Shown here piece by piece: positions 18,161 through 26,743 of a stretch of 42,392 nucleotides of DNA (position 1 is the stretch's first letter; each line of letters starts with the position of its first letter). The notes under the pieces were generated by a model, which worked only from the letters and a program-made list of their open reading frames with translations, was not told the DNA's origin and made no database searches. Source of the stretch: Chromatiaceae bacterium (GTDB lineage: Bacteria; Pseudomonadota; Gammaproteobacteria; Chromatiales; Chromatiaceae). The position numbers and the translations under genes were made by a program. The stretch spans positions 1-42,392 of the forward strand of contig PWTO01000261.1 of assembly GCA_003562815.1 (NCBI GenBank), given 5' to 3'.

Positions 18161-18817
18161 ATGCCTCTTGCCCTCTTCGACCTCGACAACACCCTGCTCG
18201 CCGGTGATTCGGATTACCTCTGGGGCCGCCATCTGATCGACTTAGGCGTCGTCGACGGTGAGCGCTACGAGCGTGCCAACCAGCAGTTTTACGATGACTA
18301 TCGCGCCGGCTGTCTGGATATCGATGCCTTTTTGCGCTTCTCGCTCGCACCGCTAAGCCAACACCCCTTGGAGCGGCTCGAACAGTGGCGCGAGGACTTC
18401 CTGCGCGAGCGCATCGAGCCGATCATGCTGGCTGCGGCACGCGCTTTGGTCGAGCAGCATCGCCGCGCGGGTGATACGCTCATGATCATCACCGCCACCA
18501 ATGCCTTCGTCACCGCCCCCATCGCGGCGCGTTTTGGGATCGAGCATCTGATTGCCACCGAGCCCGCGCGCGCGGCAGGGCGCTACACCGGCGAGATCGT
18601 CGGGCCACCGGCCTTTCGCGAAGGCAAGGTCGAACGCTTGCGCCAGTGGCTCGCAACCCATCGAGCGACATTGGCCGGCAGCACGTTCTATAGTGACTCG
18701 ATCAACGACTTACCCTTGCTTGAAACGGTCGACTTCCCGGTCGCCATCGACCCCGATCCGAGGTTGGCCGCGATTGCCCAGGAGCGCGACTGGCCGATGC
18801 GCTCGCTGCGTGACTGA
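18161..18817 (+). CDS. HAD-IB family phosphatase (SerB-like)
   Basis: This 218-residue hydrolase has motif [12 protein letters not shown] (residues 6-16, nucleophile Asp7), motif II Thr in [10 protein letters not shown], motif III Lys in REGKVERL and motif [13 protein letters not shown]. The helical cap between motifs I and II is of the PSPase type. Such proteins are often annotated phosphoserine phosphatase-like, but several act on other small phosphates or lipid phosphates, so the substrate is open. It is divergent from rppH. Its stop is only 3 bp before the predicted Pho boxes of the lipid operon, so it is probably outside that regulation. Confidence 0.9.
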
Positions 18818-18820
18818 GGA

Positions 18821-18876
18821 CCGTCATCGATCCGTCATGTCTCAGCCATCGGATCGACATGCGCCTTCGTTAAACT
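18821..18876 (+). promoter_or_regulatory. Predicted PhoB-dependent promoter of olsB (tandem Pho boxes)
   Basis: Four heptads start at 18821, 18832, 18843 and 18854, exactly 11 bp apart: CCGTCAT, CCGTCAT, CAGCCAT and TCGACAT. The PhoB half-site is CTGTCAT with 4-bp spacers; the heptads match 6, 6, 5 and 4 of 7 positions. A -10-like TAAACT (18871-18876) lies 10 bp after the last heptad, where a Pho box takes the place of the -35. The olsB start is 34 bp beyond. The spacing is seen directly; PhoB control is inferred. Confidence 0.75.
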
Positions 18877-18910
18877 GACACGTTAACCCGTTGCTATGGG
18901 CGGAGAGAAC

Positions 18911-19669
18911 ATGGGAGCGAGCGCACCTGCTCTAAGGATCAAACGCGGCGAGCGTCTATTCGTCGAACTCGCCGATTCAGCGCAAGCGGTGCGTGAGGCG
19001 CAGGCATTGCGCTATCGCGTGTTCGCAGAGGAGCTTGGCGCCAAGCTCAAGGCCGGCGAGCAGGGCCTTGACATCGACGAGTTCGATTGCGAATGCGAAC
19101 ACCTCTTGGTGCGCGAGACCAAGGGCAATCGCGTGGTCGGCTGCACCCGGCTGTTGAACGATCGCGGCGCCGAGCGCCTGGGGCGCTTCTATTCGGAGAG
19201 CGAATTCGAACTCGGCGCGATCCCCTCGCTACCTGGCCGCCTGCTGGAGCTGGGGCGCACCTGCGTCTCGCCGGAGTGTCGGCACGGCTCGGTCATCGCC
19301 GTGCTCTGGTCTGGGGTGGCGCACTACATTCACCAGCATCAGGTCGATTACCTGTTCGGTTGCGCCAGCGTGCCATTGGGCGAGAACGACTGCCAGGCAG
19401 CGGCCATCATGAATCGACTGCGGCGCCAGGCGATGGGGCCGGAAGCGCTGCGGGTGAGACCACGCGCGCCCTTACAGGCCACGGCGCGCGCCGACGATGT
19501 GCTTGACGCGCCACTGCCGGCGCTCCTCAAGGGCTATGTGCGCCTCGGCGCGGTGGCCTGTGGCGAACCTTGCCGCGATCCCGATTTCGAAGTCGCAGAC
19601 ATCTTGATGTTGCTCGATATGCGCGCACTCAATCCCAGTTATGCGCGACACTTCCTAGAGCGGATTTAG
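18911..19669 (+). CDS. olsB: L-ornithine N-alpha-acyltransferase (OlsB)
   Basis: OlsB transfers a 3-hydroxyacyl chain from acyl-ACP to the alpha-amino group of ornithine, making lyso-ornithine lipid at the inner face of the cytoplasmic membrane. The 252-residue product belongs to the GNAT-like Acetyltransf_5 group: AQALRYRVFAEELGAKL near residue 30, DIDEFDCECEHLLVRE, VVGCTRLLND, FYSESEFELGAIPSLPGRLLELGRTCVSPECR and YLFGCASVPLGE. ATG 18911 has GGAG 5 nt upstream and is preferred to ATG 18896. It is the first gene of an operon with olsA, a glycosyltransferase and a PAP2 phosphatase, behind two predicted Pho boxes. Ornithine lipid replaces phospholipid under phosphate limitation in several bacteria. 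Confidence 0.93.
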   Translation: MGASAPALRIKRGERLFVELADSAQAVREAQALRYRVFAEELGAKLKAGEQGLDIDEFDCECEHLLVRETKGNRVVGCTRLLNDRGAERLGRFYSESEFELGAIPSLPGRLLELGRTCVSPECRHGSVIAVLWSGVAHYIHQHQVDYLFGCASVPLGENDCQAAAIMNRLRRQAMGPEALRVRPRAPLQATARADDVLDAPLPALLKGYVRLGAVACGEPCRDPDFEVADILMLLDMRALNPSYARHFLERI

Positions 19670-19708
19670 CAAAGGTTCTCTCATCTACTGAATGAGGAAG
19701 GATTGATC

Positions 19709-20506
19709 GTGAAGAGACTCATCCCCCATGTGCGTGCCATCGCTCGCTTTTTGGCTCTCTTGGCGCATATTTTGCTTGGCGCGCTCATCGTGCTCGGCAT
19801 GGCGCTTTGGCGACGCCTTGGCCGCAGCACCCCGACATCGGCGATGGTGCAGTGGTGGTTTCAGCGCCTCACGCCGATCCTCGGTCTGCGCATCCGCGCC
19901 GACGGTCAGCAGGCGAAGAGCGCGCTGATCATCGCCAATCACATCTCCTGGATGGATATCCCGGTGCTCGGCGCACTGGGACCGGTCGGTTTTCTCTCCA
20001 AGGCCGAGATTCGCCAGTGGCCGCTGATCGGTTGGATGGGCGCGCAAATCGGAACCCTCTTCATCAACCGTGGCGGTCATCAAACCGCAGACCTGATCAA
20101 ATGCATCGAGGCGCGCATGCGCGAGCAGCGACCTGTGGTGATCTTCGCCGAAGGCACCACCAGCGATGGCCGTCAGCTGCGCGGCCTCTACCCGCGCCTG
20201 CTCGCGGCGGGCCAACAGCCGGGCGTCGATGTGCAGCCGGTGGCGATACGCTATGGCACCAATGCCGAGCCCGATCTCATCGCCCCGTTCATCGACGACG
20301 ACACCTTGATCCCGAACCTCTGGCGCGTATTGTGCCAGCCGAGCACTCAGGTTCAGGTGCACTTCCTCGCCCCTATCGTCGGCGCGGACCTGGATCGACG
20401 CACACTGGCAACCCAGTGCGAGACGCAGATCGCCCAGGCGCTCGAAGTGCCCATCGTGGCCAGGGCAACCGCCAAACGGCGTGAGCCCGAGATCACGACA
20501 CCGTGA
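19709..20506 (+). CDS. olsA: Lyso-ornithine lipid O-acyltransferase (OlsA, PlsC family)
   Basis: OlsA esterifies the 3-hydroxy group of lyso-ornithine lipid to give ornithine lipid. The 265-residue product has an N-terminal membrane anchor (ARFLALLAHILLGALIVLG, about residues 12-30). The PlsC acyltransferase motifs follow: NHISWMD (HX4D, His78-Asp83), FINRG near 119, and AEGTTSDG (about 147-154). GTG 19709 is chosen because AAGGA (19698-19702) lies 6 nt upstream; TTG 19703 is a weaker alternative. PlsC proteins can also make phosphatidate; placement directly after olsB (39-bp gap) argues for OlsA. Its TGA overlaps the next start by 4 bp (GTGA). Confidence 0.92.
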   Translation: MKRLIPHVRAIARFLALLAHILLGALIVLGMALWRRLGRSTPTSAMVQWWFQRLTPILGLRIRADGQQAKSALIIANHISWMDIPVLGALGPVGFLSKAEIRQWPLIGWMGAQIGTLFINRGGHQTADLIKCIEARMREQRPVVIFAEGTTSDGRQLRGLYPRLLAAGQQPGVDVQPVAIRYGTNAEPDLIAPFIDDDTLIPNLWRVLCQPSTQVQVHFLAPIVGADLDRRTLATQCETQIAQALEVPIVARATAKRREPEITTP

Positions 20507-21732
20507 ACACAGGCAGCGCGCGCGCTCAGGAGCAACCGTCGCCGGACGCGAGGCCGAGGCTCCATGTCGCGCTGGTGACCGAAACCTATCCGCCGGAGAT
20601 CAATGGCGTCGCCAATACCCTGGCGCAACTCGCGCGCGGCCTCGCGCGTTGCGGACACCAGGTCAGCCTGGTGCGCCCGCGCCAGCCGGTGGATCGACGC
20701 AACGCGCGCCAGCCAGGGGAGCTGCTGGTCGGCGGCGTGCCCTTGCCGGGTTATCGTGGCCTGCGCTTTGGTTGGCCGGCGTTCGGGACCGTGCAGCGGC
20801 GCTGGCGCGAGGCACGCCCGGATGCGATCTACATCGCCACCGAAGGTCCGCTCGGCCATGCCGCGCTGCAGGCCGCCATGTGCCTGGGCATTCCGACCCT
20901 CACTGGCTTCCATACCCAATTCCAGCAGTACTGTCGCCACTATGGTGTCGGCCTCTTGATGCGACCGATCGTCAGCCTGCTCAGGCGCTTCCACAACCAC
21001 TCCGGCGCGACCCTGGTGCCAACCCGCGCCTTGCAGCGCGATCTCGCCGCCGCAGGATTTCGCAATCTGCATGTGCTCAGCCGCGGCGTCGATACCGAAC
21101 GCTTCGCGCCGGCCTATCGGAGTGCGGCGTTGCGCGCGTCCTGGGGCTGTGGCGACGAGACAGTGGTGGCGCTCTATGTCGGCCGGATCGCCGCCGAGAA
21201 GCATGTCGATCTGGCGATCGAGGCCTTCGATCGGATTCGACGCACTCAGCCCGACAGCCGCTGCGTCCTGGTCGGTGACGGGCCTGCGCTGGCGCAGCTG
21301 CGCCGCCAGCATCCAGACCATGTCTACACCGGCGCCAAGGTGGGTGCGGAGCTGGCCGCGCACTACGCCTCGGCGGATCTGTTCGTGTTTCCGAGCCTCA
21401 CCGAGACTTTCGGCAATGTGCTCACCGAGGCGCTGGCCAGCGGCCTGGCACCCATCGCCTTCGATTATGCCGCCGCGCGCGAGCACCTACACCATGGCCG
21501 AAACGGCTATAGTATCCCCATGGCTGATCGCACCGCTTTCCTTGCGCAGGCCGAACAGGCCGTCAGCGACCATGCACAGCTAAGGCGTCTTGGCCAAGAG
21601 GCACGACGAACCGCAGAATCGCTGAGCTGGGAGCATGTGATCCGCGAGTTGGAGCACCATCTGTTCTCCGTCATCGATTGCGCCGACACTCAGAGCGAGC
21701 GCCATGAACCCATTCCTGCGACTGTTGAATGA
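20503..21732 (+). CDS. GT4-family glycosyltransferase, probably lipid-linked
   Basis: The 409-residue protein has two Rossmann halves. The N-terminal half starts VALVTETYPPEINGVANTLAQLARGLARCGHQVSLVRPRQ and contains GFHTQFQQYCRHYG. The C-terminal half has LYVGRIAAEKHVDLAIEAF, VLVGDGPALAQLR, and FVFPSLTETFGNVLTEALASGLAPIAFD, the donor-nucleotide region with the EX7E pattern. These match GT4 enzymes of the MgtA/SqdX kind, which glycosylate diacylglycerol or related lipids. Donor and acceptor cannot be read. Translation is coupled to olsA by a 4-bp overlap and to the PAP2 gene by a 29-bp overlap, so it probably acts in the same lipid pathway. SqdX activity would need SqdB, not seen here. Confidence 0.88.
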   Translation: MNTGSARAQEQPSPDARPRLHVALVTETYPPEINGVANTLAQLARGLARCGHQVSLVRPRQPVDRRNARQPGELLVGGVPLPGYRGLRFGWPAFGTVQRRWREARPDAIYIATEGPLGHAALQAAMCLGIPTLTGFHTQFQQYCRHYGVGLLMRPIVSLLRRFHNHSGATLVPTRALQRDLAAAGFRNLHVLSRGVDTERFAPAYRSAALRASWGCGDETVVALYVGRIAAEKHVDLAIEAFDRIRRTQPDSRCVLVGDGPALAQLRRQHPDHVYTGAKVGAELAAHYASADLFVFPSLTETFGNVLTEALASGLAPIAFDYAAAREHLHHGRNGYSIPMADRTAFLAQAEQAVSDHAQLRRLGQEARRTAESLSWEHVIRELEHHLFSVIDCADTQSERHEPIPATVE

Positions 21733-22231
21733 ACTCGAGACGCCGTTTTGTCGGCGTTGGAACCGTGCTCATCAGCGACCTTGGCTGCTACGGCCCTTCG
21801 CGCTCGTCAGCCGCCTCGGCAACGGCGTGTTCTGGTATAGCCTGATTGTGGTGCTCCCCATCGTCGATGGCTTCGATGGCCTCGAAGCCTCCGTGCATAT
21901 GCTGCTGATGGGCGGCATTGCGCTGATCCTCTATAAGGGCCTTAAAGGGCGCACCCGGCGCATCCGCCCCTGCCACTATGTAACCGACATCGCCACCAGC
22001 GTACCGCCGCTCGATCGCTACAGCTTCCCGTCCGGACACACGCTGCATGCGGTCAACTTTTCCACCATTGCGCTTTTCTACTATCCGCAGCTTGGCTGGC
22101 TGCTGATCCCCTTCACCTTATTAGTGGCCGCATCGCGCGTCGTGCTCGGACTGCATTATCCAACCGATGTCTTGGTCGCCTCCGCGATTGGGCTCGGCCT
22201 TGCCTATAGCAGCCTGTTGTTGATCGCCTAA
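21704..22231 (+). CDS. PAP2-family membrane phosphatase
   Basis: The 175-residue integral membrane protein carries all three PAP2 motifs: KGRTRRIRP (Lys81, Arg88, Pro89), PSGH (109-112) and SRVVLGLHYPTD (Arg145, His151, Asp155). Hydrophobic helices lie at about 43-58, 62-78, 115-130, 132-147 and 157-174. PAP2 enzymes remove phosphate from phosphatidate, undecaprenyl diphosphate or lipid A. In this operon, making diacylglycerol from phosphatidate as acceptor for the glycosyltransferase is the simplest reading, but it is inferred. It starts inside the glycosyltransferase gene. It is the last gene of the operon, convergent with the sulfur globule gene. Confidence 0.9.
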   Translation: MNPFLRLLNELETPFCRRWNRAHQRPWLLRPFALVSRLGNGVFWYSLIVVLPIVDGFDGLEASVHMLLMGGIALILYKGLKGRTRRIRPCHYVTDIATSVPPLDRYSFPSGHTLHAVNFSTIALFYYPQLGWLLIPFTLLVAASRVVLGLHYPTDVLVASAIGLGLAYSSLLLIA

Positions 22232-24514: not shown

Positions 24515-25360
24515 TCAGCCGAGGCGCGCAGCCACTGCAGCGGCAGCGGCAGCCGGGCGTGGCAACGGCATCGGTTGCGGCTGCTCGGAGGTCAGTACCT
24601 GCCGCGCCTCGGTCCAGCGCAGCAGCTCGATGGTGCCATCGTGATGTTCGACCAGCGCCGTGCAGCTCTCGACCCAATCGCCGCAGTTGCAGTAGGTCAC
24701 GCCATCGATCTCGCGGATCTCGGCGTGGTGGATGTGCCCGCAGATCATGCCATCGACAGCGCGGCGGCGCGCCTCCTCGGCCACGGCCTGCTCGAAGTTG
24801 CCGATATAATTGACGGCATTCTTGACCCGATGCTTGAGGTAGGCGGCGAGCGACCAATAGCCGAACCCGAGCCGACGCCGGAAGGCATTGAGCCGATGAT
24901 TCGCCGAGAGCAAGAGATCGTAGAGGCGGGAGCCGAGCATCGCCAGCCAGCGCCCGTTCTGCACCACCTGATCGAACTTGTCGCCGTGCAGGATCAAGAA
25001 CTGGCGACCGTCGGCGGTAGTGTGCACCAGCTCATCGCAGAGGCGCACATTGCCATACTCGGAGCCGAGGTGGTCGCGCAGGAGTTCATCATGATTGCCC
25101 GGCACATAGACCACCTCGGTCCCCCCGCGCGCCTTGTCCAACACCGCACGCACCACATTGTTGTGTGACTGCGGCCAGAACAGCCCGCCTTTCATCGCCC
25201 AGACGTCGATGATGTCGCCGACCAGATAGAGCTGCTTGCACTCGGTCGACTGCAGGAAATTCAGCAGAAAATCGGCTTGACACCCGCGAAACCCGAGATG
25301 CACATCCGAGATCCAGATGCTCCGGTACTTCAACGGTCTAAGATGCGTTACCTGACTCAT
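24515..25360 (-). CDS. PlcP-like metallophosphoesterase (LpxH-related)
   Basis: The 281-residue calcineurin-fold protein has SDVHLG (Asp19, His21), VGDIIDVW (Asp49), GNHDELLRD (88-96), LHGDKFD, and GHIHHAEI with CNCGDWVESCTALVEHHDG. LpxH has a related fold. The pattern FRGCQADFLL, WPQSHNNVV, VKNAVNYIGNFEQAVAEEARRR and NCGDWVESC is, from memory, that of PlcP. In Sinorhizobium and marine bacteria PlcP removes phosphate-bearing headgroups from phospholipids to leave diacylglycerol under phosphate starvation. Databases often label it UDP-2,3-diacylglucosamine diphosphatase. The last 30 residues are a Pro/Ala tail. ATG 25360 begins MSQVTHLRPLKYRSIWISDVH. It lies about 2.3 kb beyond the olsBA operon. 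Confidence 0.82.
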   Translation of the reverse strand: MSQVTHLRPLKYRSIWISDVHLGFRGCQADFLLNFLQSTECKQLYLVGDIIDVWAMKGGLFWPQSHNNVVRAVLDKARGGTEVVYVPGNHDELLRDHLGSEYGNVRLCDELVHTTADGRQFLILHGDKFDQVVQNGRWLAMLGSRLYDLLLSANHRLNAFRRRLGFGYWSLAAYLKHRVKNAVNYIGNFEQAVAEEARRRAVDGMICGHIHHAEIREIDGVTYCNCGDWVESCTALVEHHDGTIELLRWTEARQVLTSEQPQPMPLPRPAAAAAAVAARLG

Positions 25361-25421
25361 ATCGCCCAGGCCCCAGTCACATGATGTGGGCGCTATGGTC
25401 GCGCGGCTTTGTTGCGAGAGC

Positions 25422-25450
25422 ATGGACGATCAATGAAGATCTGATGAACG
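25422..25450 (-). promoter_or_regulatory. Weak Pho-box-like heptads upstream of the PlcP-like gene
   Basis: On the minus strand three heptads lie exactly 11 bp apart: CGTTCAT, TCTTCAT and CGTCCAT, matching CTGTCAT at 5, 4 and 4 of 7 positions. They sit about 60-90 bp before the PlcP-like start codon, in the region shared with argG. No good -10 was seen at the expected distance. A weak candidate, reported because of the neighbouring lipid operon. Confidence 0.35.

Positions 25451-25519: not shown

Positions 25520-26743
<1,224 letters not shown>

Follow-up and report, generated by a model that had tools for sequence, protein, structure and literature searches.

A predicted PhoB-dependent promoter of four tandem heptads in front of the ornithine-lipid genes olsB and olsA of a Chromatiaceae bacterium

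Introduction

A run of evenly spaced 7-bp repeats directly upstream of an ornithine-lipid gene in a purple sulfur bacterium raises the question of whether membrane lipid synthesis in this organism is under phosphate control, and by which regulator. The repeats lie in a 42,392-nt stretch of DNA from a Chromatiaceae bacterium (assembly GCA_003562815.1, contig PWTO01000261.1, forward strand), the whole of which we analysed and call the window. PhoB binds direct repeats head-to-tail and contacts sigma at the -35 region, according to the available parts of a review (PMC4415409) and a modelling paper (PMC3348028), and tandem or paired Pho boxes are, in the accessible text of the literature, an established notion that extends to cyanobacteria and E. 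coli. A literature search returned nothing joining ornithine lipid, phosphate and Chromatiaceae. In partial records, the sole match that combined purple sulfur bacteria, PhoB and phosphate starvation was a river-to-sea metagenome study, and ornithine lipid combined with purple-sulfur genus names gave no ornithine lipid among the matches listed.

Results

Reading the sequence directly, we find four heptads on the forward strand, namely CCGTCAT at 18821–18827 and again at 18832–18838, CAGCCAT at 18843–18849 and TCGACAT at 18854–18860, in agreement with a previous sequence-only reading of this DNA that had placed their starts at 18821, 18832, 18843 and 18854 with a strict 11-bp period. They are 7-bp repeats close to CTGTCAT, held 11 bp apart by 4-bp spacers, and form two boxes. 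Heptads 1 and 2 make up a strong box, evident from the sequence, from matrix scoring (18821(+) ranks first in the window) and from conservation, while heptad 3 and the promoter-proximal heptad 4 make up a weaker one, evident from the sequence, from scoring of related loci and from conservation. The -10 hexamer TAAACT occupies 18871–18876 (+) after exactly 10 bp (18861–18870), as had been claimed. A consensus scan of 18700–18960 found no sigma70 -35/-10 pair, so that the hexamer stands 10 bp past the last heptad without a proper -35 element; together with the retention of this spacing in relatives, this supports the proposal of a PhoB-type promoter in which the box replaces the -35. The array does begin 3 bp past the stop codon of an upstream HAD gene (TGA, 18815–18817). 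The 34 bp previously given between the end of the array and the olsB ATG needs correction, as we count 35 to the ATG at 18896, and the likelier start lies at 18911. The four-heptad array and TAAACT in front of olsB are confirmed as real.

Conservation was examined at 80 fetched OlsB loci, two of which (L120 and L143, which start at or no more than 11 bases from the match) were excluded from every upstream count. Heptads were scored with a matrix of 19 Pho heptads from genes other than olsB and plcP, drawn from Halochromatium salexigens, another pstS of the genus and E. coli, because a profile search of the genome to which the window belongs (the source genome) left every PstS candidate below the model cut-off (best E=5.3e-7). 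Ten of the 19 came from sites initially chosen with the pattern YNGTCAYN4YNGTCAY, and the matrix therefore carries that consensus. For four-heptad p-values, obtained at 77 loci (L152, with 28 N in its upstream region, was dropped too), the best score in the 250 bp upstream was set against 250-bp segments picked at random from that locus, a large share of which are coding. By this measure, and without any olsB heptad in the matrix, the array reached p<=0.05 in 16 of the 16 loci that we took as Chromatiaceae (L073–L087 and L100) and in 58 of 61 others, the three exceptions being L093, L105 and L145.

The nearest named relative among the matches listed is H. salexigens, with 92% OlsB identity. 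A comparison of five genus genomes (the source genome, G001, G002, G003 and G005) gave 86% identity in the heptads, 54% in the spacers and 31% in the 58 bp upstream; G006 was omitted because it hardly differs from G001, and G004, which has a more diverged upstream region, was omitted by choice. Eighteen of 20 heptad core columns were invariant and the -10 hexamer was 88% identical. The comparison of relatives that the sequence-only reading had called for therefore shows heptads that are kept upstream of olsB and, within the genus, far better conserved than the DNA preceding them. Conservation is not limited to the array, since the 20 bp past the -10 are also 79% identical in the five genomes.

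Seedless Gibbs sampling of 79 olsB upstream regions (78 loci, with L152 kept, plus the window) converged on an identical information content in four of four runs, and its best motif was a period-11 four-repeat, placed in the window at the heptad 1 G, position 18823. This motif held 25.5 bits, against 12.5–12.6 bits for three sets of random segments from the same loci and 15.9 bits for the stretch from -500 to -250, where L105 was also excluded. Sampling extended over 40 bp, and the -10 lay outside. NANNNT followed at a spacer of exactly 10 bp in 76 of these 79 loci, many of which are closely related to one another, and at spacers of 6–9 bp in 0 of 79; clustering OlsB at 70% identity gave 31 of 33, and the three loci that lack the hexamer at this spacing are L093, L145 and L150. 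The site is evolutionarily conserved, and the olsB promoter module is unusually uniform across loci.

Which regulator would read this array can be approached through the other genes that carry it. In the source genome, the two-heptad pattern has nine matches, compared with one for a reversed control. Five of the nine lie within long open frames, and the two-heptad pattern alone is therefore unspecific; the remaining four stand before olsB, phoB, a PilZ gene and what we take to be the gene for a Sel1-like repeat protein. H. salexigens has 12 matches against three for the reversed control, six of which precede phoB, pstS, a gene for a PstS-like protein, phoX, ppk2 and olsB. The remaining matches there are L164, L169 and L170 in long open frames, L165 at the beginning of a frame of 100 codons, and L163 and L173, which have no clear gene. 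At H. salexigens phoX the full layout recurs, with four heptads, 10 bp and TAATAT; for the other Pho genes of this genome the match is with the box pattern. In this lineage, then, the motif stands in front of genes whose place in the Pho regulon is undisputed, including phoB of the source genome, and its presence before phoB, pstS, phoX and ppk2 in H. salexigens supports the identity of the olsB array as a Pho site.

The source genome encodes the cognate pair. Its phoB is split between two contigs, with a Pho box that begins 74 bp upstream of the phoB start and the first 28 codons on C210, and the remainder, followed by phoR, on C27; the C27 fragment scores 268.5 bits against a full-length cut-off of 296.2, and phoR, downstream of phoB at C27:795–1781, is above its cut-off. 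In searches with TIGR00975 and TIGR00972, presumably the PstS and PstB models, pstB is present in the source genome though no PstS exceeds the cut-off, and the seven other genus members have PstS. Two Pho-box-like arrays followed at 10 bp by a -10, L154 (source genome, C178, near 4383) and L193 (G022), stand in front of genes for small PilZ-domain proteins, hinting at a possible link to c-di-GMP within the Pho regulon.

Members of the OmpR/PhoB family often use direct repeats of about 10–11 bp, and the source genome has eight Trans_reg_C matches, one in the phoB fragment, which leaves seven others. The olsB repeats might on these grounds bind a different member of the family, responding for example to osmotic or envelope stress. 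We consider this improbable, as these heptads also stand before phoB itself, pstS, phoX and ppk2, and a stricter pattern, described below, also finds alkaline phosphatase and phosphate-selective porin genes in relatives.

The genes around the array define what a PhoB-dependent promoter here would control. OlsB, an ornithine N-acyltransferase-like protein (Pfam Acetyltransf_5), is encoded at 18911–19669 (+), and olsA, for a lyso-ornithine lipid O-acyltransferase-like protein (PF01553), follows at 19703–20506 (+). OlsB and OlsA models are the respective top NCBIfam hits, with 160.8 of 350 bits and 127.2 of 300 bits, below the equivalog cut-offs; these models look tuned to other lineages. At its end, olsA overlaps a GT4 glycosyltransferase gene (20503–21732, +), whose product may be a glycolipid synthase, and a PAP2-family phosphatase gene (21704–22231, +) overlaps the end of the GT4 gene in turn, so that the operon probably extends past olsB-olsA through both. 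Homologues of OlsA and GT4 are found beside olsB in 16 of the 16 Chromatiaceae loci, PAP2 in 12 and the upstream HAD gene in 12, with some loci cut by contig ends; in the two Chromatium loci L084 and L086, a PlcP-like gene follows GT4 in place of PAP2.

Two in-frame ATG codons, at 18896 and 18911, are both kept in several relatives. The second has GGAG at 18902–18905, ending 5 bases ahead of the codon, and is more likely to be the start, since the ATG at 18896 would be almost without a leader if the transcript begins near 18883. The olsB start region of L014 (G005) / L075 (Halochromatium roseum) contains in-frame tandem 12-bp units that encode MGAN repeats.

Upstream, the HAD gene matches a histidinol-phosphatase model (322 bits, cut-off 280). 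It is co-directional with olsB, ends 93 bp before 18911 and adjoins olsB in 12 of the 16 Chromatiaceae loci, and a terminator scan found 0 terminator-like sites. Read-through from this gene could be the main source of olsB transcript, with PhoB repressing or merely modulating it. Against this, NANNNT is kept at the activator spacing in 76 of 79 loci. L082, L084 and L086 have no histidinol-phosphatase gene in the fetched flank and yet give a four-heptad p=0.003 each. We give this arrangement only a slim chance.

Could the array be a chance resemblance in GC-rich intergenic DNA? The two-heptad pattern with <=1 mismatch has four matches in the window where 1.92 are expected, and 12 of 100 shuffles yield that number; the only match with 0 mismatches is the one at 18821. 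The two-heptad score of the olsB array is reached by 3 of 200 dinucleotide shuffles, so two heptads by themselves are only moderately surprising in 42 kb. Its four-heptad score of 26.9 is reached by 0 of 200, the largest shuffled value being 23.3. Four in-register heptads, kept in relatives with a fixed -10 spacing, make coincidence very unlikely, and it is the complete four-heptad array, together with its conservation, that decides the case for the olsB site.

A palindromic operator or RNA hairpin, suggested by perfect 8-nt inverted repeats at 18827–18834 and 18850–18857 (TCGATCCG/CGGATCGA, 15 nt apart), is rejected as having next to no likelihood, because the arms, compared by eye, are lost in two of the five genus sequences (G002 and G005) while the heptads are kept, and would lie before the point at which the transcript is predicted to begin.

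The second-best four-heptad score in the window belongs to an array that the sequence-only reading had missed, at 25411–25450 on the reverse strand (CGTTCAT, TCTTCAT, CGTCCAT and TCGCAAC, reading from 25450 to 25411), with a -10-like GACCAT (25395–25400, -) 10 bp past it. It precedes a gene for a PlcP-like metallophosphatase (24515–25360, -; Metallophos), which more likely starts at 25360, with a conserved MSQV, than at the listed open reading frame start of 25423, because the latter position falls inside the array. The divergent neighbour at 25520–26743 is, from its protein sequence, presumably an argininosuccinate synthase gene. The PlcP-like protein is related to and distinct from LpxH: it scores 49.8 bits with the LpxH model (cut-off 190.35), where another gene of the source genome scores 278.6, and we disfavour it as the LpxH of the cell. 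The name, based on family and neighbourhood, is meant as a likeness.

An array occupies the same place in L073–L076 (p=0.002 to 0.031), and over 13 rows of plcP-like genes p<=0.05 was obtained in 12, with L131 failing at p=0.917. NANNNT at the 10-bp spacing, read by eye from the printed hexamers, occurs in eight of the 13. As a general rule outside the genus, the plcP array is weaker than that of olsB. It seems that ornithine-lipid, glycolipid and phospholipase genes are coupled at this locus through two arrays that share a design. In G007, a member of the same genus at 89% completeness, a plcP-type array (L190) is present and an OlsB match absent, which suggests that the two units may occur apart.

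Across the 79 olsB upstream regions, heptad 4 has a GCAA core in 38, compared with two for heptad 1 and three for heptad 2. After clustering OlsB at 70% identity, the core remains in heptad 4 of seven of 33 representatives and in heptad 1 of one of 33; these counts, and the window's own heptad 4, which is TCGACAT, weaken a GCAA heptad 4 as a universal rule. GCAA-type heptads also occur in plcP promoters of the genus.

We searched 55 genomes with a stricter pattern consisting of a dual box, GCAA in heptad 4 and the -10, allowing <=1 mismatch. It gave 27 matches, compared with one for the reversed control, spread over 21 of the 55 genomes; the olsB array of the window is missing from them because its heptad 4 is not GCAA. 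Downstream genes were PlcP-like (10 matches, in 10 of the 55 genomes), olsB (six), PstS-like (two) and MaoC/phosphate-acyltransferase (two), with single matches before alkaline phosphatase, PhoX, phosphate-selective porin, metallophosphatase and PilZ genes, and two matches (L180, at a contig end, and L198) without a gene called downstream. The olsB matches, L187, L202 and L203 were identified from where they lie or from sequence identity, and PlcP-like proteins, L201 and L205 from a reading of the protein sequence. The arrays before a MaoC/phosphate acyltransferase gene, in G001 (L201, read from the protein) and G007 (L204, by Pfam), are GCAA-type and mark this gene as a possible further Pho target.

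These patterns invite a more far-reaching idea, which we offer tentatively and regard as rather doubtful. Across Beta- and Gammaproteobacteria, the olsB module would be a fixed 56-bp unit of four heptads, 10 bp and a -10, and would follow a position-specific code in which the promoter-proximal heptad is relaxed or rewritten. The sigma-adjacent PhoB subunit would then recognise a sequence other than the one read by the distal subunits. If true, such a code would set a graded response for lipid remodelling.

Discussion

Our comparisons suggest, with a probability of about 0.93, that the 56-bp element at 18821–18876 is a PhoB-dependent promoter driving olsB-olsA. From these data we infer a sequence of events in which, upon phosphate starvation, PhoR would phosphorylate PhoB, and PhoB dimers would bind head-to-tail, first to the strong box (heptads 1 and 2) and next to the weaker box (heptads 3 and 4). 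The upstream Pho box would bind PhoB first, an order that agrees with the title of Blanco 2012. The weaker box, in place of a -35 element, would then recruit sigma70 RNA polymerase to TAAACT, with a predicted transcript start near 18883, about 7 bases past 18876. The transcript would cover olsB and olsA and probably continue over the GT4 and PAP2 genes that overlap behind them, and phospholipids would be replaced by ornithine lipids and glycolipids, with the second array driving a PlcP-like phospholipase that would supply diacylglycerol.

This reading opens phosphate-dependent lipid replacement in purple sulfur bacteria to direct tests. The module with its exact -10 spacing, found at 76 of 79 loci, may also serve as a sharp predictor of Pho regulons in these bacteria.

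In other bacteria, Pho boxes have already been published upstream of olsB and of plcP, as the accessible parts of the relevant papers show. In PlcP-Agt remodelling, the genes for the PlcP phospholipase and the glycosyltransferase lie close together and have Pho boxes, in the available text (PMC4796936, PMC8528852); in the window, by comparison with that text, the glycosyltransferase gene stands behind olsBA, whereas the plcP-like gene is separate, in opposite orientation and with an array of its own. Vibrio cholerae makes ornithine lipids by another route, through OlsF, likewise under PhoB according to an excerpt of the report (PMC12186959).

Closer are Burkholderia sensu lato and Acinetobacter, for which Pho boxes before olsB have been predicted (PMC7814305 and PMC11828411, respectively, in part), and the likeness consists in a PhoB site in front of olsB. 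In Acinetobacter, the same partial text describes olsB as induced by phosphate limitation and regulated by PhoR, with olsA not co-regulated with olsB (PMC11828411), unlike the arrangement proposed here. For both groups, the available portions describe an 18-bp box, and mention no dual box with a fixed -10 spacing (PMC7814305, PMC11828411).

The same layout is found, at a different gene, in the E. coli pstS promoter, which, as read from NC_000913, has four heptads with an 11-bp period, exactly 10 bp and TATTTT. Compared with it, heptads 3 and 4 of the window are weaker and the spacers GC-rich.
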